A DNA stretch of 34,215 nt from Nitratireductor sp. ZSWI3 (GTDB taxonomy: Bacteria; Pseudomonadota; Alphaproteobacteria; Rhizobiales; Rhizobiaceae). The notes under the pieces are model-generated. The model was given only the letters and a program-made list of their open reading frames with translations, searched no databases and was not told where the DNA came from. Below, in pieces: positions 30-34,125 of this stretch. Location: positions 1 through 34,215 of the forward strand of contig NZ_JANKOF010000051.1 in NCBI RefSeq assembly GCF_024655565.1, in the 5' to 3' direction. The translations under genes and the position numbers were made by a program. Each line of letters opens with the position of its first letter. Positions within the stretch are counted from its first letter, which is position 1.

Positions 30-590
30 TCAATTGTGGGCGTTGCAGTTGCGGACGTCGAGCGCCCCCTCGACATAGTCGATCTTCGGTCGGCGAAACC
101 CCATCGCGGCCCAGGCGCCGAGCAGCCGGACGAAGAACCCGGCCGAATGCGCCTTGAGATTGGGCACGTCATCCGGCAGCGCCGACGGATCGTCAAGATC
201 GCCGGTCATCGTTCGCAGTTGCAGCGGCGGAAGGCTCCCTTCCGGCCAGAGAGGGCCGTAGAGGTCGACCCAGTGGCCGTCGGTGAAATCGAGAAACATC
301 GGCGTATTGCAGCAGACCGCGACCACCCGACGGGTCTTGGTCTTCTCCGTCAGGCGGAATTCCCGCAGGTTGGCGGCCCCCCTGACGCACCGGACGCGGT
401 CCTTGCGGTACATCTCCATCCGCGTGCCGCCCGTCGCCTCCCGCAGACGCGGCGCGCCCGGCAGGGCCTCCAGCACACCCGCGGCGGTCCGGCACGATGT
501 GCACAGGCACTCGGTGCTCATGATCGGATGGCTCTCGACCTCCATCTCGACCTCGCCGCAGCGGCATTGCAGTTGTGTTGGCTTGCTCAT
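30..590 (-). CDS. GFA-like (DUF6151-type) zinc-binding protein
   Basis: The 186-residue product has the cysteine layout of the GFA / CENP-V zinc fold: a CxC pair at residues 9-11, a CxCxxC cluster at 28-33 and a CC pair at 93-94 followed by NTPMF. The founding family member was described as a glutathione-dependent formaldehyde-activating enzyme, but most relatives have no proven reaction, so the substrate here is unknown. The start codon overlaps the stop of the TetR gene by 4 bases (ATGA), so the two are translationally coupled and this protein is probably the main target of that regulator. No signal peptide or membrane segment is seen, so it is cytoplasmic. The fold is secure; the function is not. 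Confidence 0.82.
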   Translation of the reverse strand: MSKPTQLQCRCGEVEMEVESHPIMSTECLCTSCRTAAGVLEALPGAPRLREATGGTRMEMYRKDRVRCVRGAANLREFRLTEKTKTRRVVAVCCNTPMFLDFTDGHWVDLYGPLWPEGSLPPLQLRTMTGDLDDPSALPDDVPNLKAHSAGFFVRLLGAWAAMGFRRPKIDYVEGALDVRNCNAHN

Positions 591-20303: not shown

Positions 20304-21131
20304 TTATTTCCTCCTGGCCCGCAGATAGAGCCCCGCCGAGGCGACCACGATGGAGAAGACGAGCATGATCGTGGCGATGGCGTTGATCTCCGGCTTTATC
20401 CCCCGCCGCAGCATGCCGTAGATGAAGACGGGCAATGTGGTCGAGTCGACACCAGCGATGAAATAGGTGATCACCAGATCGTCCATCGAGATGATGAAGG
20501 CGAGCAGCCCGCCCCCGATAACGCCAGGAAGGATCAGCGGCAAGGTCACACGGCGGAAGGTCTGCCATGAATTGGCGCCGAGATCGGCCGAGGCCTCCTC
20601 GAGCTTTTCGTCCATGTCGGCGATGCGGGCGCTGACGACGATGAAGACGTAGCTGATGAGAAAGGTGCAGTGGCCTATCATGATCGTATAGACACTGAGC
20701 TTTACGCCGGTGGAGACGAAGAAGATCAGAAGCGCGATGCCGAGCACGATGTCGGGCATGATCATCGGCATGAACATGAAGGCGCGGTAGAAGCTCTTGA
20801 GGCGGAAGCGGAAGCGCGCGACAGCTATTGCGATGGCGGTGCCGAAGACGGTCGATACGCTGCTGGCGACAAGGGCGACCAGCAGGCTGTTGCGCACGGC
20901 CCCATAGAGCTGGCGCGTCGATTCCACATAGAGCGTGGATTCGGTGAGCCGCGCGGGAAAGCCGAAGATGGTGCGGTACCAGTCCAGCGTGAAGCCGTCC
21001 CAGATCATCATGTTCACCGGGTTGGCATTGAAGGAGAAGACCACGATCAGCACGATCGGCGCATAGATGAAGGCGAAGAAGAGGAACCCGTAGACCGAAA
21101 GAAGGCGCGAAAGCCCGCCATAGCGCTTCAT
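20304..21131 (-). CDS. Spermidine/putrescine-type ABC permease (PotC-like)
   Basis: The 275-residue membrane protein has six helices, the first in YGFLFFAFIYAPIVLIVVFS, then NSLLVALVASSVSTVFGTAI and the EAA coupling loop KLEEASADLGANSWQTFRRV followed by TLPLILPGVIGGG. This is the PotC class. It is one base from the PotB-like gene and pairs with it. Ligand class is set by the operon; polyamine is not proven. Confidence 0.94.
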   Translation of the reverse strand: MKRYGGLSRLLSVYGFLFFAFIYAPIVLIVVFSFNANPVNMMIWDGFTLDWYRTIFGFPARLTESTLYVESTRQLYGAVRNSLLVALVASSVSTVFGTAIAIAVARFRFRLKSFYRAFMFMPMIMPDIVLGIALLIFFVSTGVKLSVYTIMIGHCTFLISYVFIVVSARIADMDEKLEEASADLGANSWQTFRRVTLPLILPGVIGGGLLAFIISMDDLVITYFIAGVDSTTLPVFIYGMLRRGIKPEINAIATIMLVFSIVVASAGLYLRARRK

Positions 21132-21132
21132 C

Positions 21133-22059
21133 TCAGGCCTCCTGCCGATTGAGCGGCGTCGCCGTCACCCGTTCCTCGCGCGTCATCTGACGCACATAGA
21201 GCAGCAGCGAGACGAGAATGGTGGCCATCACCACCATGCTGAGGGCGGCGCCGAAGGGCCAGTTGCGCGCGGAGAGGAACTGTTGCTCGATCAGATTGCC
21301 GATCATCAGCACCTTGGCGCCGCCCAGGAGCGACGGCACGATGAAGTTCCCCAGGCTTGGTATGAAGACGATGATGGAGCCGCCGACGATGCCGGGCAGG
21401 GTCATGGGCAAGATCACGCGGCGGAAGGTCTGCCAGCGGCCCGCGCCGAGGTCGAAGGAGGCTTCGACCATCGCCATGTCCAGCTTCTCGACGCTCGCAT
21501 AGAGCGGCAGGAACATGAACGGGATGAAGATGTAGACCATGCCCACCACCACCGCGAAGCCGGTGAAGATCATCTCCAGCGGCTGGTCGATGATGCCGAG
21601 GGCCATCAATGCCTGGTTGATGAAGCCCGTGGGGCGCAGGAGCAGAACCCAGGCGAACAGCCGTACGATGAGGCTGACGAAAAAGGGCAGCGTGATGAGG
21701 AAGATGAAGAAGTTCTTGCGCCGCTCCGGTTGCCGGCTGATCCAGAAGGCGGCCGGATAGCAGATGGCGAGGCTCAAGCCGACGGTGCACAGCGCGAGCC
21801 ATACCGAGCGGGCGAAGATCTGCAGATAGGCGGGGTCGAACTGCTCGTAGCGCGTGTTCGCCCAGCCGAAGATCCGGCCGTAGTTCAAATGGTAGAAGTT
21901 CCACACCACGCCGCCGTAGAGCCCGGGCTCCAGCCAGCTGTAGGTGAACATGATGGCAAGCGGGCCCAGGAAGAAGATGCCGAGGAACAGGGTCGGGGCC
22001 CCGAGCAAGCCGACGAGCGCGGCCGCACGCCGCCCTTTGGCCGTACCACGGCCGATCAT
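21133..22059 (-). CDS. Spermidine/putrescine-type ABC permease (PotB-like)
   Basis: The 308-residue membrane protein starts with a hydrophobic helix at about 11-37, then a periplasmic loop of PotB type (NFYHLNYGRIFGW). Its core includes FFIFLITLPFFVSLIVRLFA and the coupling loop MAMVEASFDLGAGRWQTFRR before VILPMTLPGIVGG. It overlaps the ATPase gene by 4 bases, which supports translational coupling in the operon. Confidence 0.94.
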   Translation of the reverse strand: MIGRGTAKGRRAAALVGLLGAPTLFLGIFFLGPLAIMFTYSWLEPGLYGGVVWNFYHLNYGRIFGWANTRYEQFDPAYLQIFARSVWLALCTVGLSLAICYPAAFWISRQPERRKNFFIFLITLPFFVSLIVRLFAWVLLLRPTGFINQALMALGIIDQPLEMIFTGFAVVVGMVYIFIPFMFLPLYASVEKLDMAMVEASFDLGAGRWQTFRRVILPMTLPGIVGGSIIVFIPSLGNFIVPSLLGGAKVLMIGNLIEQQFLSARNWPFGAALSMVVMATILVSLLLYVRQMTREERVTATPLNRQEA

Positions 22060-23237
22060 GAGCCGACCTCCCCGGCCAGCGGGTGCAGCCTGGAGGCGGG
22101 GAACCAGAGTTCGATCATCTGGCCCGGAGCCGGGCCGGCGCCGAGGTCCTCTCCGGCCGGCAGCGATGCCTTGAGCGGTTCATCGGCCTCGCTTGTGCCG
22201 ATCACAAGCTTATAGTGAGTGCCGACGAAGAACACCTCCCGGACCGGCCCCGAGAAGCGCAGGCCCGTCCCGTTGTCCGGCGGGCTCGGCCGCGCATCCT
22301 CCGGACGGGCCAGGAGCTGCACCTTGTCGCCTGCACTGAAGGTCTGCCCGTCCCGCCGCGGCAGCCGCACTTCCTGCCCGTCGGCCAGGCGGAAATGACA
22401 ATGGGCCGGACCGACCTCGCTGACCGTCGCCGCGAAGAGGTTGCTCTCGCCCACGAAGCGCGCCACGAAGACGTTGCTCGGCGTCCGGTAGAGCTCGTGC
22501 GGGGGGCCGATCTGCTGGAGCTTGCCCTGACCCAGCACCGCCACCCGGTCCGACATGGTGAGCGCTTCCTCCTGGTCGTGGGTGACGAAGACGAAGGAAA
22601 TGCCGAGCTCGTGCTGCAGGGCCTTCAGTTCCTGCTGCATCTTCCCGCGCAGGCTCTTGTCCAGCGCTGAAAGCGGCTCGTCGAGCAGCAGTATCTTGGG
22701 CCGCGCCACCAGGGCGCGCGCCAGAGCGACACGCTGCTGCTGGCCGCCGGAGAGCTGGTTGATCCGCCGTTCGCCGAAGCCCGCCAGGCCGACCAGCTCC
22801 AGCATTTCGCTCACCCGGCGGCGGGTCTCCGCCTGTTCCACCTTGGCGATTTCCAGGCTGTAGGCGACATTCCTCGCCACGGACAGGTGCGGAAACAGCG
22901 CATAGGTCTGGAAGACCGTGTTGACCGGGCGGCGATAGGCCGGCCGGCCGGCGATGTCCTGCCGGTCTATGAAGATATCGCCCGCGTCGAGATCCTCGAA
23001 GCCGCTGACCACCCTGAGAAGCGTGGTCTTGCCGCAGCCGGACGGCCCCAGCAGGGTCAGGAATTCATTTGGCGCAACGCTGATGGATACATCGTCCAGA
23101 GCGACGACTTCCTGCCCCTCCGGCGTCGCAAAGCGCTTCATGGCATGCCTGATCTCCAGCACGGGCCGGGCCGGGCCATTCTCGGCCGCGTCCCGCGCTT
23201 GAGCGGCTGCCATCGGGCTCGTCGCCTCCATCTTCAT
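22056..23237 (-). CDS. Spermidine/putrescine-type ABC ATPase (PotA-like)
   Basis: The 393-residue ATPase has Walker A GPSGCGKT (64-71), the Q-loop in [16 protein letters not shown], the signature LSGGQQQR (162-169), Walker B LLLDEP (183-188) and the switch in FVTHDQEEA. From about residue 275 a TOBE domain follows, as in PotA and other CUT1/MOI importers. The first 20 residues are not family-like; a later ATG at 23213, preceded by GGAGG, may be the true start. The gap to the binding-protein gene is 4 bases. Confidence 0.95.
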
Positions 23238-23241
23238 GGTC

Positions 23242-24303
23242 TTACTGCGCCGCCGTCTTCAGCCGTCTCCATTCGCGGGCGTAGAGGCGGATGTCCTCGC
23301 CCAGGTCGTGGAAGATCTGCAGACGCTCCATGACCTCCTTCGGCGGATACATGGTCTCGTTGTTGGCGATCTCCTCGGGAATAAGCTCCAGCGCCGGGAT
23401 GTTGGGCGTACCGTTCATCTGCTGGGCAACGTTCAAGGCGGCGATCTCGGGCCTCAGATAGAATTCAAGGAACTTGATCGCATTGTCCTTGTTCGGCGCG
23501 CTCTCCAGCACGCACATGTCTTCCTGATAGATCGTCGCGCCTTCCTTCGGGATCACATACTCCAGAACGTCCGGCATCTGGCTGACGAAGATATTGGCGC
23601 CGACATACCAGTGGGCGGCGGCGACATCGCCGGACTGGACCAGGGGGATGCTGTCATAGGTGAAGGCGGAAATGTCGCCGATCCGCTCGACGATATAGTC
23701 GGTGGCCTTCACCGCCTCCTCCTCGTCGACCGAATTCACCGAGGTGCCGTTCATGATATGGCCGATGCCGATCGTCTCGCGAGGATCGTCCAGCAGGATG
23801 ATCTTCTTGCCGCTCTCGGCGGCGGCGAACAGGTCCGCCCAGCCCTCGATCGGGGCATCCACCACCTTCTTGTTGTAGACGATGCCGACGCTGCCCCAAG
23901 CATAGGGAAGGCAGTATACGGCCTGCGGGTCCGTCTTGGCGCGGATGAAGTTCGGATCGATGTTCTTGAAATCGGGATGGCTGCCGATGCCGGTCTTGGC
24001 CAGCAGGCCGAGATTGAACATGACATCATGCATCCACACCGAGGGGAACACGATGTCGTATCCCGTGGCCCCGGCCTGGATCTTGGCCAGCATCTCCTCG
24101 TTGGTGCCGTAGGTGTCGAGCGTCACCTCGACGTCGAACTCCTCGCTGAAGCGCTGCAGGACCTCCGGATTGATGTAGTCGCCCCAATTGTAGAGGTTGA
24201 GGCGCCCCTCGGCGGCGGCAGGCGCGCTGACGGCAGCGGCAAGGGCAAGGGCGATTGCGGCGGGCGCCGCCGTTCGCAGGATGGATTTCCCGGATTTTGT
24301 CAT
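23242..24303 (-). CDS. Spermidine/putrescine-type substrate-binding protein (PotD-like)
   Basis: The 353-residue protein has a signal peptide (residues about 1-31, ending AAA-E). The mature start LNLYNWGDYINPEVLQRFSE is typical of PotD/PotF. Further landmarks are GYDIVFPSVWMHDVM and the hinge block YAWGSVGIVYNKKVVDAP. It captures ligand in the periplasm for the PotABC-like complex. The start at 24303 was chosen for GAGGGG 7-12 bases upstream and for the signal peptide. The ligand may be a polyamine or a polyamine-like peptide, given the aminopeptidase in the operon. Confidence 0.94.
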   Translation of the reverse strand: MTKSGKSILRTAAPAAIALALAAAVSAPAAAEGRLNLYNWGDYINPEVLQRFSEEFDVEVTLDTYGTNEEMLAKIQAGATGYDIVFPSVWMHDVMFNLGLLAKTGIGSHPDFKNIDPNFIRAKTDPQAVYCLPYAWGSVGIVYNKKVVDAPIEGWADLFAAAESGKKIILLDDPRETIGIGHIMNGTSVNSVDEEEAVKATDYIVERIGDISAFTYDSIPLVQSGDVAAAHWYVGANIFVSQMPDVLEYVIPKEGATIYQEDMCVLESAPNKDNAIKFLEFYLRPEIAALNVAQQMNGTPNIPALELIPEEIANNETMYPPKEVMERLQIFHDLGEDIRLYAREWRRLKTAAQ

Positions 24304-24374
24304 GGTTGGCTTCCCCTCTTTATGTTTTCGCCGGAAGGGGATCCTGCCGGCATGGCCATCAGGGTGCTGTAATG

Positions 24375-24397
24375 ATAACATTTCTGTCAAACGTTAT
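24375..24397. promoter_or_regulatory. 23-bp palindrome, probable RpiR operator
   Basis: ATAAC (24375-24379) and TTT (24381-24383) are mirrored by AAA (24389-24391) and GTTAT (24393-24397). Eight of eleven base pairs about the centre are perfect. It sits between the divergent PotD-like and RpiR genes and contains TTGACA on the minus strand (24390-24385), a consensus -35 element for the ABC operon, though no convincing -10 follows. This is an operator in both size and place. Confidence 0.65.
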
Positions 24398-24429
24398 TTT
24401 TCTTTCATGTTGTGCTCAGGAGGCCGTTG

Positions 24430-25296
24430 ATGCCGGGCTTTGCCTCATACCCGCAGCTCAATTTCGAGGAATTCGTGGAAGCGATGGAGGAAGCCGTTCC
24501 CGCCTTGCCGCGTCAGGAGGCCAAGCTCGCGCAATTCATCCTGCTCAACCTGAACACGCTCGGGCTCGAAACCGGCAAATCTCTGGCGGCCAAGGTCGGG
24601 GTGAGCGAGGTCACGGTCGGGCGGCTGCTGCGCCGGCTCGGCTGCAACGGCATGAAGGAGTTGAAGGCACTGCTGCGCCAGCAATATTCCGTGGCCACAC
24701 CCGCGCCGGAAGCACGGCAGGGGGTGCATGCGGCGCTCGAGCAGGTGATGGAGGCCGAACTCGGCGTCGTTACGGCGATTTTCCAGCAGACGACCGGCAC
24801 CGATTGGCAGCGCGCCGGCGCCCTCCTGGCCGGGAGCGAGCAGATCTTCGTCACGGGCTTCCAGTCGGTCAGGGGAATGGCGGAGGATTTCGTCCGCCGC
24901 CTGTCGCTCGCGCGCGGAAACGTGGCGTATCTTTCGCCGCATGACGGGATGCTTGCCGAATGGGCGCGGATCGAAAATCGTCCTGCCACGGACACCTGCC
25001 TCGTGCTCGTGGATGTCGTGCCCTATGCCCGGGAGGCGATCGACATGGCGCGGTTGGCAAAGGAGGAGGATCGCGCCTGCATCGTCGTCTCGGATGAATA
25101 TTGCCACTGGAGCCGCGGCATCGCCGACGCGGTGATCTACGCACCGTCGCGGACGGGCTTGTTTCTCGAATCGACCGTCGGCATTTCGCTAGCGCTCAGC
25201 CTGCTCGTCGATGCCGCAGCCGCCGCCCATCCGGAGGAGTCGCGCGAACGGCTTCTGCAGTGGAAGGCCCATGCCAAGCGGCTGCGGCTATTTTGA
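24430..25296 (+). CDS. MurR/RpiR family transcriptional regulator
   Basis: The 288-residue protein has an RpiR-type N-terminal helix-turn-helix (about residues 20-85: LPRQEAKLAQFILLNLNTLG, then LAAKVGVSEVTVGRLLRRLG). A SIS-like C-terminal domain follows, with IFVTGFQSVRGMAEDFVRRL where sugar-phosphate sensors bind phosphate. RpiR proteins usually sense sugar phosphates, yet this gene is divergent from a polyamine-type ABC/peptidase operon, so its ligand is uncertain. The start at 24430 has CAGGAGG 7 bases upstream. A GTG start six codons earlier is less likely. Confidence 0.93.
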   Translation: MPGFASYPQLNFEEFVEAMEEAVPALPRQEAKLAQFILLNLNTLGLETGKSLAAKVGVSEVTVGRLLRRLGCNGMKELKALLRQQYSVATPAPEARQGVHAALEQVMEAELGVVTAIFQQTTGTDWQRAGALLAGSEQIFVTGFQSVRGMAEDFVRRLSLARGNVAYLSPHDGMLAEWARIENRPATDTCLVLVDVVPYAREAIDMARLAKEEDRACIVVSDEYCHWSRGIADAVIYAPSRTGLFLESTVGISLALSLLVDAAAAAHPEESRERLLQWKAHAKRLRLF

Positions 25297-26619: not shown

Positions 26620-26937
26620 GTTCCACCCGCTCGCACGCTTCATGTCACGATACCCGACAGCCATCAAATCGCAGGCGGCGCGCCGCTTCAAGGGCGCAGT
26701 TCGGCTGCCCCGGCGCCGACGGGGCGCACGGGCCGCGCAGGATCATCAATCTGGTGGACTCCTCGACGAAAGAGGTACGCGTCGTCGTGCGCCCGAACTT
26801 CCAAGGGATGGATTTACCGGCCGGGCGTCTCTTGAAATCATGGAGCATGCGCGGCTCGCCGATTGGCGATCAAGCCATTGCGGTCCGACCGAGCGGAAGC
26901 CATGGCGCATGCTGAGCTGCGACCTGGAGACGGGGTG
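26620..26937. other. Intergenic stretch with possible coding remnant
   Basis: The 318 bases between the small membrane protein and the sulfotransferase are GC-rich. From about 26736 to the stop at 26913-26915 one plus frame reads like real protein (RRIINLVDSSTKEVRVVVRP and on), but no suitable start precedes it; an ATG at 26808 would leave 35 residues. It could be the 3' end of a broken gene. No promoter for the sulfotransferase is obvious. Confidence 0.35.
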
Positions 26938-27816
26938 ATGACGACCGGTAGACTAAAGCCGCCCATATTTCTGATCGGCAACTACCGGTCGGGAACGACC
27001 ATCACGCAAAAGCTGATCGGGCTCCATCCCGATATCGTCACCTGGTACGAGCCGAGAACGCTCTGGCGCTATGCCGACCCGGCGCGGCGCCACGACGAGT
27101 TTGACGAAAGCGATGCCACGGAAGCGGTGGCCCGCTATATCCGCCGCCGTTTTCTCAGTTTCCAGATGCAGGGCGGCAATCGCAGGATCATGGAGAACAC
27201 TCCATCAAACGTTCTGCGCGTGCCGTTTGTCCATCGGATATTTCCCGAAGCGACTTACATGTTCATCGTCAGGAATCCGTTTTCCTGCATCAGCTCGATC
27301 GAGCTCAAATGGAGGAAGTCCAAAACCTGGAAGGGCCTTGTGAGGAGCTTGTCGGACGCGCCGACCATGCAGCTTCCGTATTACGCGCGCGAATTTCTCG
27401 CCAACATGATCGTCAGGAAGGTGCGCCGGACTGCGTATGTGCCGAGCTACGGACCCCGCTACGAGGGGATCGACCAGGATCTGGAGCACTGTGACAAGCT
27501 GCAGATCGCGGCACGCCAATGGGCGTTCGGCAACCGCAAGGCGCGCCGGGATCTGGCAAGGCTCGGTGCCGGCAGCGTCCTGACCATTCGCTACGAGGAC
27601 CTGATGGAGGACACCGAAGCGGTCCTGCTGCGCATCTACGATCACTGCGGACTGGCCTGCGACGACGGCATTCTGCGCGCGGCCAAGAGGATGGTCGACC
27701 CCGGTCGTCAACAGAAGTGGCTGCGCCTCGACAAGGCCGCATTGCGGGCGGTGCTGCCGGAAGTCTCCGAGGAGATGGCGCTCTATGGCTACGAAGTGCC
27801 GGCAATCCTTCAATAA
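26938..27816 (+). CDS. PAPS-dependent sulfotransferase
   Basis: The 292-residue protein has the two PAPS-binding motifs of the sulfotransferase fold: the 5'-phosphosulfate loop NYRSGTT at residues 15-21 after IFLIG, and the 3'-phosphate site FIVRNPFSCISS at 109-120 (Arg112 and following Ser). It is a cytoplasmic enzyme that moves sulfate from PAPS to an acceptor. Its neighbours (flippase downstream, PAPS-type genes on the other strand) point to a glycan or lipid-linked sugar as acceptor, though amino or hydroxyl groups of small molecules are possible. The start at 26938 follows GGAGA by 7 bases. A TTG start upstream is open but unlikely. Confidence 0.88.
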   Translation: MTTGRLKPPIFLIGNYRSGTTITQKLIGLHPDIVTWYEPRTLWRYADPARRHDEFDESDATEAVARYIRRRFLSFQMQGGNRRIMENTPSNVLRVPFVHRIFPEATYMFIVRNPFSCISSIELKWRKSKTWKGLVRSLSDAPTMQLPYYAREFLANMIVRKVRRTAYVPSYGPRYEGIDQDLEHCDKLQIAARQWAFGNRKARRDLARLGAGSVLTIRYEDLMEDTEAVLLRIYDHCGLACDDGILRAAKRMVDPGRQQKWLRLDKAALRAVLPEVSEEMALYGYEVPAILQ

Positions 27817-27905: not shown

Positions 27906-28064
27906 TCCGGTCGCCCCAGATGTCATGCTGCGGCCTTCTCCAGGGCGCGATATTTTAGGGCGTTCGGGCCGGTTCCGTTTCGCCGCGACGGCCACATCCA
28001 CTTCAAGGGCAAGGACGATATGGTGTACGAGCGCGATTTGCTTTCACAGAGATGCCGGCCGTGA
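27906..28064 (+). pseudogene. Possible 3' remnant of a broken gene
   Basis: After a stop at 27903-27905 one frame runs 52 codons to a TGA at 28062-28064, overlapping the flippase start. The text FRAFGPVPFRRDGHIHFKGK followed by DDMVYERDLLSQ is charged and looks like true protein, but there is no ATG, GTG or TTG start with a ribosome site. I do not know the family. Together with the remnant before the sulfotransferase it suggests deletion of genes around 26938-27816. Chance cannot be excluded. Confidence 0.35.
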
Positions 28065-29560
28065 AAGGGCAGGGCGGGCTGGCAAGACGCAGCATTGTGG
28101 GCATTCTCTGGACGGGCCTTTCCATGGGTGCCCTTGCCGTGGCCGAACTGGTCGCGCTGCTCGTCCTCGCGCGGCTGCTCTCGCCTGCGGAATTCGGCCT
28201 TTATGCCGCGGCCCTCGTGGTCATAAAGTTCTCGGCGATCTTTGAGAATCTGGGTGTGACGCCGGCAATCGTGCAAAGGCCGGTTCTCGAGGTCCGTCAT
28301 CTTCGCGTCGGCTTCACGTTGTCGATGCTTCTCAGCCTCGCCGTATCTGCTGCAGTCTGGGTCTCGGCGCCCGTCATCGCCGCGTACCTGCGCCTTGCCG
28401 ACCTCGTTCCAGTGGTTCGGGTGGCGTGCATCATCCTCTTGTGTCAGGGCTTCTCGACGGTGGCGTTGGCCTCGGCGCAGCGCGCTTTGCGCTTCCGCTG
28501 GCTTGCCACTCTGGACGCTTGCGCATTCGCTGCCGGCTTCATCGTCGTCGGGCCGGCACTGGCCCTGCTCGGCTACGGTGTGTGGGCGCTCGTCGGGGCA
28601 TTGGCGACCCAGCACCTTTTGCGTATGGCGGTGCTTCTCCTCGGTCAGCCGCATCCCAAGCGGCCGATGCTGGAGTTGCGCGCGGCGGCCGATCTCCTTT
28701 ATTTCGGTGGAGGCTTCACCCTTGCTAGGATCTGCAATTATCTCGCCACCCAGGTCGATCGGCTCGTCGTCGGCCGGTGGCTCGGCGCCGATGCGCTTGG
28801 GGTGTATGCGCTGGCCTCACAGGTCATGACCGCGCCGGCGGTCATCATCGGGCAGATACTCGATCGCGTGCTCTTCCCCACCATGGCGCGCGTGCAGGAA
28901 GAGCCCGCGCGCCTCGCCCGCGCCTATCGCAGCGGTGTGGCCGCCTGCGCGCTGCTCGTCCTCCCCGCCGGCCTCACACTCGCCGTGATCGCTCCGGAAC
29001 TGGTGCTGGTGGTGCTCGGACCTCGATGGGCCGGCGTTGCCGCGCCGCTGCAGATCCTCGCTCTGGGGATGCTGTTTCGCACCAGCTACAAGCTCAGCGA
29101 CTCGGTCACGCGCGCCACCGGCGTCGTCTATGCCCGGGCGTGGCGCCAGGCCGCCTTCGCCCTGGCAGTCGCCCTCGGCGCGCTTGTGGGCTCGCGCTGG
29201 GGTGTTGCGGGCGTGGCCTTCGGTGTGGTCGCGGCGGTTGCCTTCAACTTCCTGCTCATGGCGCAATTGAGCTTGCGTGTGACCGGTGTGCGCTGGCCTG
29301 AATTCGCCGCGGCTCATTTGCCGGGCCTCGCGCTTGCCGCCGTGGTCGGGGCCGGCGTGTGGACGATGGCCGACTGGCTTCGTGGAAGGGAGGTGTCTCC
29401 TCTGCTTCTGCTTCTCGACGTGGTGGTTTTCGCCCTTGTCATCTCCCTTGTGGTCTGCTGGCTGCTGCCTGCCGTCTTTCTCGGCAGGGACGGGCGGTCG
29501 GTCCTCGGCCTGCTCGTCTCCCTGGCGCCCGCCTGGCTTCGGCGTGGCTCGGCCGGATAA
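28052..29560 (+). CDS. Polysaccharide flippase (Wzx-like, MOP superfamily)
   Basis: The 502-residue protein is almost wholly membrane-embedded, with about 12-14 helices. Its start SIVGILWTGLSMGALAVAEL followed by LARLLSPAEFGLYAAALVVI is typical of oligosaccharide flippases of the MOP superfamily (polysaccharide_synt class, WzxC-like). The DRLVVGRWLGADALGVYALA block at about 235-254 is another family mark. It should move a lipid-linked oligosaccharide across the inner membrane. It lies on the strand of the sulfotransferase, 235 bases downstream, and converges on the antiporter gene, 15 bases away. Confidence 0.92.
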   Translation: MPAVKGQGGLARRSIVGILWTGLSMGALAVAELVALLVLARLLSPAEFGLYAAALVVIKFSAIFENLGVTPAIVQRPVLEVRHLRVGFTLSMLLSLAVSAAVWVSAPVIAAYLRLADLVPVVRVACIILLCQGFSTVALASAQRALRFRWLATLDACAFAAGFIVVGPALALLGYGVWALVGALATQHLLRMAVLLLGQPHPKRPMLELRAAADLLYFGGGFTLARICNYLATQVDRLVVGRWLGADALGVYALASQVMTAPAVIIGQILDRVLFPTMARVQEEPARLARAYRSGVAACALLVLPAGLTLAVIAPELVLVVLGPRWAGVAAPLQILALGMLFRTSYKLSDSVTRATGVVYARAWRQAAFALAVALGALVGSRWGVAGVAFGVVAAVAFNFLLMAQLSLRVTGVRWPEFAAAHLPGLALAAVVGAGVWTMADWLRGREVSPLLLLLDVVVFALVISLVVCWLLPAVFLGRDGRSVLGLLVSLAPAWLRRGSAG

Positions 29561-29575
29561 GCGATCAGGCGCAAC

Positions 29576-30892
29576 TCAGGCTGACTGGCGCCGGGGCGGA
29601 ACGGGCCTGTGACCGCGGTCCAGGGCGCGATCTCCGTCCGGCGGACGGGCTGTCTTGTCGCTGTCGAAGGCGGCTGGATTGCGTGCAAGCCGCTGGCGAA
29701 GCCAGAGACCGGTCATCAGCGAGGTGACGATCGAGGCAAGCACGAGCGCGGTGAACATGCGCTCGTCAATGATGCCGGCGGCCAGCGCCACGCTCGCCAG
29801 GACGATTCCCGGCCCGCCGCGCGTGTTCATCGCCATGCCGTAGTCGAGGGCACGCGCCCATCCCATGCCGCCGGCACGGGCGGCCAGCGTGCAGGTGGCG
29901 AGCTTCGTCGCCGTGCTCGCCGCGATGAAGAACAGCGTCAGCCCGGCGTCAAACTGATGCACCAGGTCGAGCCGCAGCCCTACCAGAGCGAAATAGATCG
30001 GCACGAAGAACCAGATCGCGATATCCGCTATATGCTGCTTCACCGCCACCAGTTGCCGTGAGGAAAAGCGTGTCATCACAAGTCCTGCCAGAAGGGCAGC
30101 GAAGACGATATTGACGCTGAGCAGGCTCGCAGCGGCGACGAAGACCAGGCACAGAAGCATGCTGTAGCCGGTCAGCGAGGCTTCACTGACCTTTCCGATG
30201 ACGTTTCTGCGGATCGTGCGCAGAAGTGTGGGGATGAAGAGGAGCGCCGTCAGCACGAAGGCCACCGTGACGGCGACCACACGTGTGATCGCCGCCGTGT
30301 CGGCTGCGTCGCCATATTGGACAGCGGTGGCTATGGCAAGCACGGTCCACAGCACGAGATCCTGTATGGTCGCGGCGCTGACGACATTGCGCGCAAAGGG
30401 CGTGTTCATCAGGTCAAGATCGAGGAAGATGCGCGAGACCACGGGGATCGACGTGACCGCCACGGCGATGCCCATCACCAGTTTGAAGGCAAACTCGTCG
30501 CCTGCCCGCGTCTGTTCGAAGAACGGTGCGCCGGCGTAGCCGAAGGCAAACGGGACGATCAGTGCGCCCAGCACCAATGCCAATACGGTGCGGCCGGATG
30601 CTGCCGACCCCTCCGCCTGCATCTTGAAGCCGGCGGTGAACATCAAAAGCACGAGGCCGAACCAGTAGAAGGCGGCCAGGAGAGCCTCCTGCGCGGCAAA
30701 ACCGATGAAAAGCCAATCATGCGCATCGCGCGAGATCACGCCGAGAATTGAGGGGCCGAGGACAATGCCGCCGGAAATCTCGCCGATCACGCGCGGCAGC
30801 CTGAGCCGTTCGAACACAAATCCACCGCCGAGCGCGGCGAAGAGCAGGAGCACCAGCGACAGGAAAAAGCGTGCCAGCTCCGCGTCGTTCAT
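29576..30892 (-). CDS. Kef/CPA2-type cation:proton antiporter
   Basis: The 438-residue protein has about 12-13 helices and CPA2 marks: RLPRVIGEISGGIVLGPSIL at 31-50, AVTSIPVVSRIF at 145-156, ATIQDLVLW with the ion-binding Asp178, and GMAMNTRGGPGIVLASVALA near the end. No TrkA-N (RCK) domain follows; the last 40 residues are charged and disordered. It probably exchanges K+ or Na+ for H+. It is the third gene of the fusion/APS-kinase operon, 87 bases after the kinase. The reason for pairing with sulfate activation is not known; it could balance the charge of a sulfated polymer. Confidence 0.92.
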   Translation of the reverse strand: MNDAELARFFLSLVLLLFAALGGGFVFERLRLPRVIGEISGGIVLGPSILGVISRDAHDWLFIGFAAQEALLAAFYWFGLVLLMFTAGFKMQAEGSAASGRTVLALVLGALIVPFAFGYAGAPFFEQTRAGDEFAFKLVMGIAVAVTSIPVVSRIFLDLDLMNTPFARNVVSAATIQDLVLWTVLAIATAVQYGDAADTAAITRVVAVTVAFVLTALLFIPTLLRTIRRNVIGKVSEASLTGYSMLLCLVFVAAASLLSVNIVFAALLAGLVMTRFSSRQLVAVKQHIADIAIWFFVPIYFALVGLRLDLVHQFDAGLTLFFIAASTATKLATCTLAARAGGMGWARALDYGMAMNTRGGPGIVLASVALAAGIIDERMFTALVLASIVTSLMTGLWLRQRLARNPAAFDSDKTARPPDGDRALDRGHRPVPPRRQSA

Positions 30893-31558: not shown

Positions 31559-33736
31559 CTATTCCTGGAACAGGGGATGTTTCATCATGCGTTCGGCACG
31601 CACGAGATCCTGCACCTCTGAGCGCATCATCCAGTTCGGCAGGGACTCGCCGGCCATCAGTGCGCGTCTGATCTCGGTGCCGCTTATCGGCCGTGCCGTG
31701 TCGCAGGACCTGATCTCCACATAGCGCTCCGACTGCGCGTCGTAGCCGACCGCCTCGAAGAAGATGGGTTCGATGCCGATATCGCCCAACTCCTCGAATA
31801 GGGCACGGCTGGCATCGGCATCGTAGAAGTTTCCGACGCCGGAATGATCGCGCCCGACGATGAAATGGCTGCAGCCCATGTTCTTCCGGCACAGTGCTGT
31901 GAAGACCGCCTCGCGCGGCCCGGCGAAGCGCGGATAGGTGATGAAGCTCGACAGCACCACCTTGCCGGCCGGATAGACGCCGTAATCCAGCATCGCCTGA
32001 TAGCCATCGAGCACCAGGCGCGGCAGGAAGTCGCCGCGGCGGGCGATGCCGACCACCGGATTGATCAGCAGTCCGTCGGCATAGCTGCGCTCCAGCGCCC
32101 GGATCTGTATCGCCTCATGGGCCCGATGCACCAGGTTGCGGCTGTGAAAGGCCACCACGGTCGTCCAGCCCTTCTGGGCGAAGACCGTGCGCAATTGGGC
32201 CGGCGTCAGGTCGTAGCGCCGGTGGGGCGAGGGCAGAGGGTGGATGAGCGTCACGTCGCCGGCAATGAAATGGTCCCCGCGCGAGGAGATCCGTGCGACA
32301 CCGGCATGTCTGGGCGACTCCGTTCCGAACCACAAGCGCGAAAGCTCCGCGGCGTCGAAGGTGAAGGTCTCCGAGACGTCGATAACGGAATGGAGCGATC
32401 CTTGCCCGTTGGTGAGCAGAACGCGGTCGCCCTTGCCGAGGCGCCGAGCCGCATCGCCGGCGACGGGGAGCACCACCGGCATCGTCCAGGCGAGGCCGCA
32501 GGGGAGGCGGTTGTGTTGCAGGACGCTTTCGAGCGTTTCCCTGTCCATGAAACCTTGCAACGGCGAAAAGGTCCCTCGGGCGATCTGTTCCACGTCGGTC
32601 AGTTCCTCGTCGCCGACCGCAATCGCGGGCAGGTCGGCAACCTCGGCCTCCTCCATCGCTTCCATCGTCCGCCGGACAAGGCGGCCACCATGCGGCTCGA
32701 CTTCCGGCAACGGCGACGATGGTCGCACACGGATCGCCTGTGCACCGTTGCGGTTTCGCCGGAACTGCTCGACAACCCGGACTACCATCCTGGCGCAGCT
32801 TTCGGGATACCGGCCGATTGCGGTCTCGGCGGCGAGCACCAACCCGTCGGCGCCGTCGACCAGCGTGTTGTAGATGTCGTTGACCTCGGCCCGTGTCGGC
32901 GCTGGCGCGGCGGTCATCGATTCGAGCAGGTTCGTGGCAACATAGGTTTTCGCACCATGGCCGCGCGCTTTGCGAATGATCATCTTTTGCAGTGCCGGGA
33001 TCTGTTCGATGGGGACCTCGCGTGACAGGTCTCCGCGGTCGATCAGGATCGCATCGGATTTTCCTGCGATGGCCGCGAGATTGCCGAGCCCGCTCAGGCA
33101 TTCGATCTTGGAAATGATGAATGCGCCGTCGCCGGCCTCGCTTCGGATGGCGTCGACATCGGCGGCGCGATGGGCGAACGAGAGCGCGAAATGGCGGATG
33201 CCCGCCCGGCGGCCGATGGCGATGGCTGCAATATCCTTCTCCGTCATCGGCGGCATATCGAGGGCCCTTTGCACGGTGACGGCCTTGTTCTGGCCAATCT
33301 CTCCGCCGGTGAGGATGCGCAGCGTCGCCTCGTCCTCGCCTTTCTCGACGACCTGAGCGAATACGGCGTTGAAGTCGATGCTGATGAAATCGCTCACCCG
33401 CAGGCCGCTTACGATATAGGGCGGGTAGAAGCTGAAGCTCGACGGATCACCGGAGGCCGGCCGCGCGCGCACGGTGAGAAAGCGGTTCTCCCGCACCGAA
33501 ATCCTTCCGTCCGCCAGCGGCCCGGTGCGCACTTGCGCACCCTCCGTGTCGAGGCAGATGGGAACGGGCGTTCGCTGCTGGATGAATGCGATAATCTTCT
33601 CCAGGTCTTCGAGCCTGGTATGGGAGAGGTTGAGGCGCAGCAACGAGGTGCCGGCGCGCTCGAGGCAATGGATCACCCTGTCGTTCAGGGAGGCCGGACC
33701 GAGAGTGCACAAGAGCTCCACCTTCTTGATCGTCAT
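31559..33736 (-). CDS. Pyruvate kinase-ATP sulfurylase fusion protein
   Basis: This 725-residue protein joins two enzymes. Residues 1-330 are pyruvate kinase domains A and B: TLGPAS then LRLNLSH (Arg34, Asn36, Ser38, His39), LDTEG (Asp63, Thr64), IISKIE (Lys210, Glu212), RGDLSREV (Asp236) and VATNLLESM (Thr268). The effector-binding C domain is absent and the B-domain DDG is DFN. Residues about 345-725 are a Sat-type ATP sulfurylase: PHGGRLVRR, ARGTFSPLQGFM, FHSRNLVHRAH (530-540), GRDHSGVG (628-635) and PISGTEIR (683-690). The usual QTRNP reads HSRNL here. The start at 33736 follows GGTGGGA; the frame stays open to 33874. It leads an operon with an APS-kinase-like gene and an antiporter. Confidence 0.92.
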   Translation of the reverse strand: MTIKKVELLCTLGPASLNDRVIHCLERAGTSLLRLNLSHTRLEDLEKIIAFIQQRTPVPICLDTEGAQVRTGPLADGRISVRENRFLTVRARPASGDPSSFSFYPPYIVSGLRVSDFISIDFNAVFAQVVEKGEDEATLRILTGGEIGQNKAVTVQRALDMPPMTEKDIAAIAIGRRAGIRHFALSFAHRAADVDAIRSEAGDGAFIISKIECLSGLGNLAAIAGKSDAILIDRGDLSREVPIEQIPALQKMIIRKARGHGAKTYVATNLLESMTAAPAPTRAEVNDIYNTLVDGADGLVLAAETAIGRYPESCARMVVRVVEQFRRNRNGAQAIRVRPSSPLPEVEPHGGRLVRRTMEAMEEAEVADLPAIAVGDEELTDVEQIARGTFSPLQGFMDRETLESVLQHNRLPCGLAWTMPVVLPVAGDAARRLGKGDRVLLTNGQGSLHSVIDVSETFTFDAAELSRLWFGTESPRHAGVARISSRGDHFIAGDVTLIHPLPSPHRRYDLTPAQLRTVFAQKGWTTVVAFHSRNLVHRAHEAIQIRALERSYADGLLINPVVGIARRGDFLPRLVLDGYQAMLDYGVYPAGKVVLSSFITYPRFAGPREAVFTALCRKNMGCSHFIVGRDHSGVGNFYDADASRALFEELGDIGIEPIFFEAVGYDAQSERYVEIRSCDTARPISGTEIRRALMAGESLPNWMMRSEVQDLVRAERMMKHPLFQE

Positions 33737-34125
33737 GATTCCCACCATCTTGTTTTGGGTTCGGTGCGGCTGGATGCCCGGGTGGAAATGACAGGTGGTC
33801 GCGCCTGTGACAGGTGCGCAGTCGGCGCCCGGGACATCGCCCCACCCACGTCCCACGATGGCGCCGGTGCGCATCTGGACGACCCTTCTCGGTCCGTCGT
33901 GTCGATAATCCTAGGCGCAGCAACGTGTCGCCGGAAAGCTCGACAATTGGATAGCGCCGGCGAGAGAGCTACCACAAAAGTGGGTGGCAAAAAGGGTGCG
34001 GTTAGCCCGGATTCGGAATGGCATTGCCCGGGCGCGGTCCTTCATAATCGATTTTTGTTGGTGTGCCTGCACCATGGGGGAGGCATGCCGTATTGGTCAT
34101 CGCAATCCTTGCCGAGAGTAATCTC
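33737..34125. other. Divergent intergenic region
   Basis: This 389-base gap separates the fusion operon from a plus-strand gene. TGACAGGTG occurs twice (33789-33797 and 33808-33816), 19 bases apart, and the second copy lies in the palindrome CCTGTGACAGG (33804-33814). This could be a regulator site for the fusion operon. The part near 34040-34110 is AT-richer and could hold the plus-strand promoter. No gene is supported inside. Confidence 0.4.

Follow-up and report, generated by a model that had tools for sequence, protein, structure and literature searches.

Fusions of ATP sulfurylase to a helper enzyme are already known, among them the ATP sulfurylase-pyrophosphatase fusions of stramenopiles and haptophytes (PMC2275785). 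In these, as in the fusion described here, the partner enzyme could drive sulfate activation, but the pyrophosphatase would hydrolyse PPi, whereas the pyruvate kinase (PK) core of our fusion could remove ADP at the expense of PEP. Bifunctional PAPS synthases also combine the ATP sulfurylase and APS kinase steps; at our locus, in contrast, the APS kinase has its own gene next to the fusion, and a PK core is present in addition. In the CysD/CysNC complex, which contains an APS kinase, sulfate activation is coupled to GTP (PMC4373884). Like the fusion as we propose it to work, this complex has a second energy source, GTP there and PEP here. Its ATP sulfurylase is of a type unrelated to Sat. The coupling proposed here also has a counterpart in vitro: a PAPSS1 cascade run without PK gave an ADP peak with PAPS practically missing, and in the presence of PK no ADP peak was seen and the amount of PAPS rose clearly (PMC9885120). 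ADP together with APS locks APS kinase (PMC3734648), for which reason added PK and PEP were needed for PAPS to build up in that cascade (PMC9885120). That system is a laboratory mixture supplied with PK/LDH (PMC9885120), whereas the present case is a natural gene fusion. Our literature search, which covered open-licence PMC papers, found no description of a PK-ATP sulfurylase fusion, and to our searches PK is a new fusion partner for ATP sulfurylase.

The fusion lies on the minus strand of a 34,215-nucleotide stretch of Nitratireductor sp. ZSWI3 (NZ_JANKOF010000051.1, positions 1 to 34,215), called the window below (Table 1). The initial annotation had described one uninterrupted frame with a PK core lacking its C domain followed by Sat, and an APS-kinase-like gene 9 nucleotides further on; our analysis bears out this layout. 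The frame is single and contains no internal stop codon. For its start we followed the relatives, which begin at about the equivalent of position 33736, the longest in-frame ORF beginning upstream at 33874. A domain search on the full protein, which the initial annotation had suggested, placed PK (215.8 bits, cut-off 30), PUA_2 (130.3 bits, cut-off 27) and ATP-sulfurylase (215.8 bits, cut-off 24.3) all above their Pfam cut-offs. The PK match stops at residue 313 and PUA_2 comes next, with no Pfam match to the PK C-terminal domain in the fusion. The NCBIfam equivalog models scored the PK part (TIGR01064, 253.1 bits, cut-off 306.4) and the Sat part (TIGR00339, 299.8 bits, cut-off 322.95) of the window below cut-off, as was also the case for the neighbouring APS kinase (TIGR00455, 125.5 bits, cut-off 138.7), which matches PF01583 with 116.9 bits (cut-off 21.1). 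The structure model of the fusion had a mean pLDDT of 86.3 and a pTM of 0.76, with linker residues 331-344 poorly modelled, and Foldseek searches with this model returned ATP sulfurylase 8a8d as top match (TM 0.94 by target length) as well as many pyruvate kinases.

Table 1. Coordinates of the fusion gene, its domains and neighbouring genes in the window.
Feature	Coordinates	Strand	Length or basis
PK-ATP sulfurylase fusion CDS (P0001), stop codon counted	31559..33736	-	725 aa
Pyruvate kinase barrel PF00224, residues 4-313	32798..33727	-	Pfam
Linker, residues 314-346, poorly conserved	32699..32797	-	residues 331-344 with pLDDT <50
PUA_2 domain of ATP sulfurylase, PF14306, residues 347-499	32240..32698	-	Pfam
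ATP-sulfurylase catalytic domain PF01747, residues 507-713	31598..32218	-	Pfam
APS kinase-family gene (P0002), 189 aa	30980..31549	-	9 nt past fusion stop
CPA2-type cation/proton antiporter gene, next in same direction	29576..30892	-	cluster in 13 loci including the window
Polysaccharide flippase-type gene (Polysacc_synt_3)	28052..29560	+	Pfam
Sulfotransferase gene (Sulfotransfer_3), start codon uncertain	26863..27816	+	93.1 bits, cut-off 27

The fusion belongs to a rare family, thinly scattered over several phyla, and is not one of a kind. Listing genomes with the same architecture, as the initial annotation had proposed, yielded 23 other fusion loci and two more genomes (G573 and G713), which indicates that the fusion is not an assembly join. 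A frameshift or assembly artefact between the halves, named at the outset as a possible flaw, is ruled out by the 23 further loci, which span several lineages and include complete replicons (chromosome NZ_CP015318, plasmids NZ_CP118611 and NZ_CP144206). Our scan of genome_contigs gave 43 loci, 21 of them fusions (L025-L045), counting L043, which ends at a contig edge, and L045, a fusion with a decayed Sat end. Two plasmid records carry a full-length fusion of 74-75% identity, and rhizobial full-length fusions of 74-77% identity were found in Mesorhizobium, Sinorhizobium/Ensifer and Pseudaminobacter. Fusions of 48-56% identity came from metagenome-assembled genomes labelled Rhodospirillales, Halobacteriovoraceae, Rhodopirellula, KSB1 and Anaerolineae, labels that can be wrong in genomes of this kind; L025 and L027 represent one species in two assemblies. 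With the genome of the window included each time, at least 4 of 394 genomes sampled from the family, at least 1 of 199 from the order and at least 2 of 398 from the phylum had a full-length fusion, all lower bounds given that the first pass scored few candidates per genome. The fusion was absent from the nine other genomes of the same genus that were searched. Two of the four matches from one of these samples (G307 and G450) share coordinates with L031 and L032 and were not counted as new, and in another genome (G743, locus L087) PK and Sat form a split pair of two neighbouring genes. Gene calls within the loci are heuristic. A phage origin was considered and set aside, no relative having been found among the pattern-matched stretches of viral_contigs.

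We propose, with a probability of roughly 0.55, that the fusion and its neighbour form a PAPS-supply module in which PK uses PEP to recycle the ADP of APS kinase to ATP. The ATP sulfurylase part would convert ATP and sulfate to APS, the neighbouring APS kinase would convert APS to PAPS with release of ADP, and the PK core, devoid of its usual C domain, would regenerate ATP from this ADP next to the kinase at the expense of PEP. Removal of ADP would spare ATP and, chiefly, keep the APS kinase from a dead-end enzyme-ADP-APS state. The net reaction would thus be sulfate + ATP + PEP to PAPS + PPi + pyruvate, and the PAPS would be destined for sulfation, probably of surface glycans. For this module, we infer PK activity, the APS kinase as the source of ADP, any physical contact, and glycans as what is eventually sulfated. 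Cells already hold ATP high, so that the gain would hinge on local coupling. If the proposal is correct, sulfate activation would have a third natural power source beside PPi removal and GTP hydrolysis, and nature would be using the PK/PEP coupling found necessary in one in vitro PAPS cascade. For the sulfation of glycans and drugs, the fusion would also be a PAPS enzyme ready for use and possibly self-recycling, and it would allow a clear-cut test of whether APS kinase in cells is truly held back by the removal of ADP. Furthermore, it would hint that rhizobia and marine bacteria may have sulfated surface polymers not yet studied.

The PK part is under purifying selection, with dN/dS values of 0.06-0.13 in all five rhizobial pairs, lower than those of the Sat part in every pair. 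As first noted in the initial annotation, Lys210, Glu212, Asp236 and Thr268 are kept: these residues are invariant in a 22-row alignment and correspond to K220, E222, D246 and T278 of E. coli PykF. In E. coli numbering, the equivalents of R32, N34, S36, H37, D66, R73, K156, K220, E222, R244, G245, D246, T278 and E314, among them the catalytic and ADP-site residues, are present in all 34 PK sequences scored (23 fusions and 11 PK-alone proteins, truncated L043 excluded), and that of T67 is Ser in four of the 34. In the trees, housekeeping Pyk is separated with 100/100 support from a clade that unites the fusion PKs with the eleven PK-alone proteins (labelled gamma, SAR11 and Acidobacteria). The interior of this clade is weakly resolved, L056 falling amid the fusions in one tree and near the base in another. 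While the fusion PK shares its barrel and catalytic residues with housekeeping Pyk, it differs in the missing C-terminal domain, the separate clade, the linkage to APS-kinase-like genes and its own motif states, namely Glu68, Asn279 and Ala312 (E. coli numbering; 34/34 members, 0/22 Pyk rows). These clade-specific states and the absence of the C-terminal domain would also suit a PK core that senses PEP or acts as a scaffold, tuning or holding the enzymes of sulfate activation while its own chemistry goes unused, much as the fungal APS-kinase domain fused to ATP sulfurylase is described as regulatory and not catalytic (PMC2275785). We consider such a role unlikely, given that the equivalents of K220, E222, R244, D246, T278, R32, N34, R73 and K156 are retained in all members scored and also in L088, a further fusion with a decayed Sat, and that PK is found alone beside APS-kinase-like genes.

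An APS kinase gene is the next same-strand gene in 17 of the 24 fusion loci, separated by at most 32 nt or overlapping, and it overlaps by 4 nt in L088, the 25th fusion. In L034 only the start of the APS kinase precedes the contig end, in L033 the gene lies upstream of the fusion, and in L036, L037, L038, L043 and L044 it was not found in the fetched locus; nor was one evident among the ORFs listed for the split pair L087. APS-kinase-family matches were present somewhere in all 31 genomes searched. Among the PK-alone loci, an APS-kinase-like gene directly follows in nine of eleven (three gamma loci with clear APS kinases and six SAR11 loci with a divergent kinase), but not in L055 and L056. 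Taken together with three fusions in which Sat has decayed, these counts make APS kinase the most constant partner of PK. More tentatively, the PK subfamily as a whole, to our searches undescribed, might be devoted to scavenging ADP for CysC-type 3'-nucleotide kinases, in marine bacteria perhaps for non-PAPS donors, with PEP powering the synthesis of sulfation-type donors. This idea is weakened by several PK-alone genomes that show no second PK match. Its members occur fused to Sat, as a split pair, in a sulfotransferase-PK-Sat triple fusion and alone beside kinases. The SAR11 kinase beside PK is only distantly APS-kinase-like, and Sat was found in none of the seven SAR11 assemblies, which measure 0.7-1.1 Mb and are of unstated completeness. 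In L050, L051 and L054, all SAR11, the kinase after PK has a second domain, which in L050 weakly matches NMN-adenylyltransferase models; this two-domain gene is a possible analogue of the Sat and APS kinase pair.

The initial annotation had called the Sat part complete, a description that holds for the PUA_2 and ATP-sulfurylase domains, HxxH (537, 540) and GRDH (GRDHSG, 628-633) but not for the QTRN motif, which reads HSRN in the window (531-534). Gln199 of A. vinosum Sat contacts sulfate (PMC3779200). The corresponding Gln was present in six of six ordinary Sats scored and in three solved Sats aligned, whereas His replaces it in 22 of 25 fusions and in the split Sat gene of L087; the other three fusions, all with decayed Sats, have Tyr (L039, L045) or Pro (L088). 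The Ala of GRDHAG varies across fusions between Ser, Thr and Ala. A change is also seen in the kinases: APS kinase holds the adenine of APS with two Phe (PMC4373884), of which the window kinase keeps the first and has Leu for the second, and the fusion-linked kinases have Leu or Met for one of the two. Given the replacements in both enzymes, the substrate may differ from ordinary APS. The module might then activate a compound other than sulfate, or use another base, with Sat-like and APS-kinase-like enzymes making a PAPS-like donor and PK recycling the matching NDP, a reading also in line with gene sets near L035, L048 and L052 that we take to resemble the Campylobacter phosphoramidate genes. 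We regard this as quite unlikely, since all 22 non-decayed fusions, the window's included, retain R533, N534 and HxxH and 21 of them GRDH (GRNH in L043), and since several loci have a sulfotransferase gene with Pfam support, either fused or close by. Despite the pocket changes, the sequences suggest sulfate and adenosine as likely, though not certain, substrates.

In L039, L045 and L088, the fused Sat has lost key motifs, the PK residues and the adjoining APS kinase are retained, and another Sat is present in each genome. L045 has a short frame in which a metagenome assembly error is possible, and the frame of L088 comprises 718 aa. Given that L045 and L088 are sisters in the tree and L039 is separate, such losses occurred at least twice. 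That PK was kept with APS kinase when Sat was lost is consistent with ADP recycling beside APS kinase. ATP sulfurylase releases PPi, not ADP, so PK would not pull the Sat step directly. It is on this ground, and given that PK persists beside APS kinase where Sat is decayed or unfused, that we find it very improbable that PK pushes the ATP sulfurylase step itself via high ATP, as the initial annotation had it, even with PK fused to Sat and APS formation by ATP sulfurylase thermodynamically unfavourable (PMC3728988). The recycling of ADP to ATP by PK, which was part of the same suggestion, stands as the best-supported role, and removal of ADP from APS kinase is the likelier benefit.

The fused PK is not necessarily the glycolytic copy, since a separate Pyk was found in the genome of the window and in 18 of the 20 other fusion genomes searched; the three gamma PK-alone genomes all have one as well. 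A glycolytic role was thus not favoured. It could apply, as a general pyruvate kinase role, to G068 and G073, in which the fusion is the only PK match, and to G090 and five of seven SAR11 assemblies, in which the PK-alone gene is the only one, although absence of a second PK is weak evidence in these small or metagenome assemblies. Routine sulfur assimilation is probably independent of the fusion, given that the genome of the window encodes two other long APS-kinase-domain frames, which we read as CysNC, and four PAPS-reductase-family matches. A requirement of the fusion for cysteine synthesis was not favoured in view of the same genes. Elsewhere in this genome (G000:C13, ~19422-36990), a 795-aa second APS-kinase-domain frame occurs with a PAPS-reductase-family match, and the same contig has a sulfotransferase match just above cut-off; this may be a second sulfation locus.

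Sulfated surface glycans are a plausible target of the PAPS-supply module, and the sulfotransferase encoded in the window is a possible user of PAPS. Sulfotransferase genes were detected in six of 24 fusion loci (the window, L023, L033, L036, L037 and L044), with weak matches in L036 and a distance of ~17 kb in L023, and in three of eleven PK-alone loci (L048, a weak match, L053 and L056). The sulfotransferase model was made from seven sequences, including those of the window, L033, L037, L044, L053 and L056, and Pfam supports these six above cut-off. In L044 (4106-7315), sulfotransferase, PK and Sat are fused in one frame of 1069 aa; another PK-Sat frame, 738 aa long, is present in the same genome (G078:C51). 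The nine rhizobial loci (L025-L032 and L041) gave no sulfotransferase match. Rhizobial loci instead contain a gene of the O-antigen ligase type, together with genes for an HprK-related kinase (below cut-off) and an uncharacterised nucleotidyltransferase. The HprK-related kinase and nucleotidyltransferase-type genes adjoin the module in L023 (24131-30743) and the rhizobial equivalents, as do genes for a small protein of ~95 aa and a very large one of ~1300 aa.

Other gene sets accompany the module or PK in some loci. PEP-utilising/PPDK-like, class I glutamine amidotransferase-type and NTP transferase genes were found in L035 (3465-5819, 14335-18095), L048 (2778-6995) and L052 (16130-19843), the L052 set being assigned by clustering only and that of L035 including a second APS-kinase-like gene. 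Runs of TPR-type proteins flank the fusion on both sides in L036 (3012-9764, 14066-20575); five of them weakly match the sulfotransferase model, and another combines TPRs with a methyltransferase domain by Pfam. In L088 (5939-7903), a gene converging on the APS kinase gene encodes a TPR-like protein whose C-terminal part appeared sulfotransferase-like by reading. In the window itself, an ABC transporter set of two permeases, an ATPase and a binding protein (20304-24390) lies beside an RpiR-type regulator gene (24412-25296).
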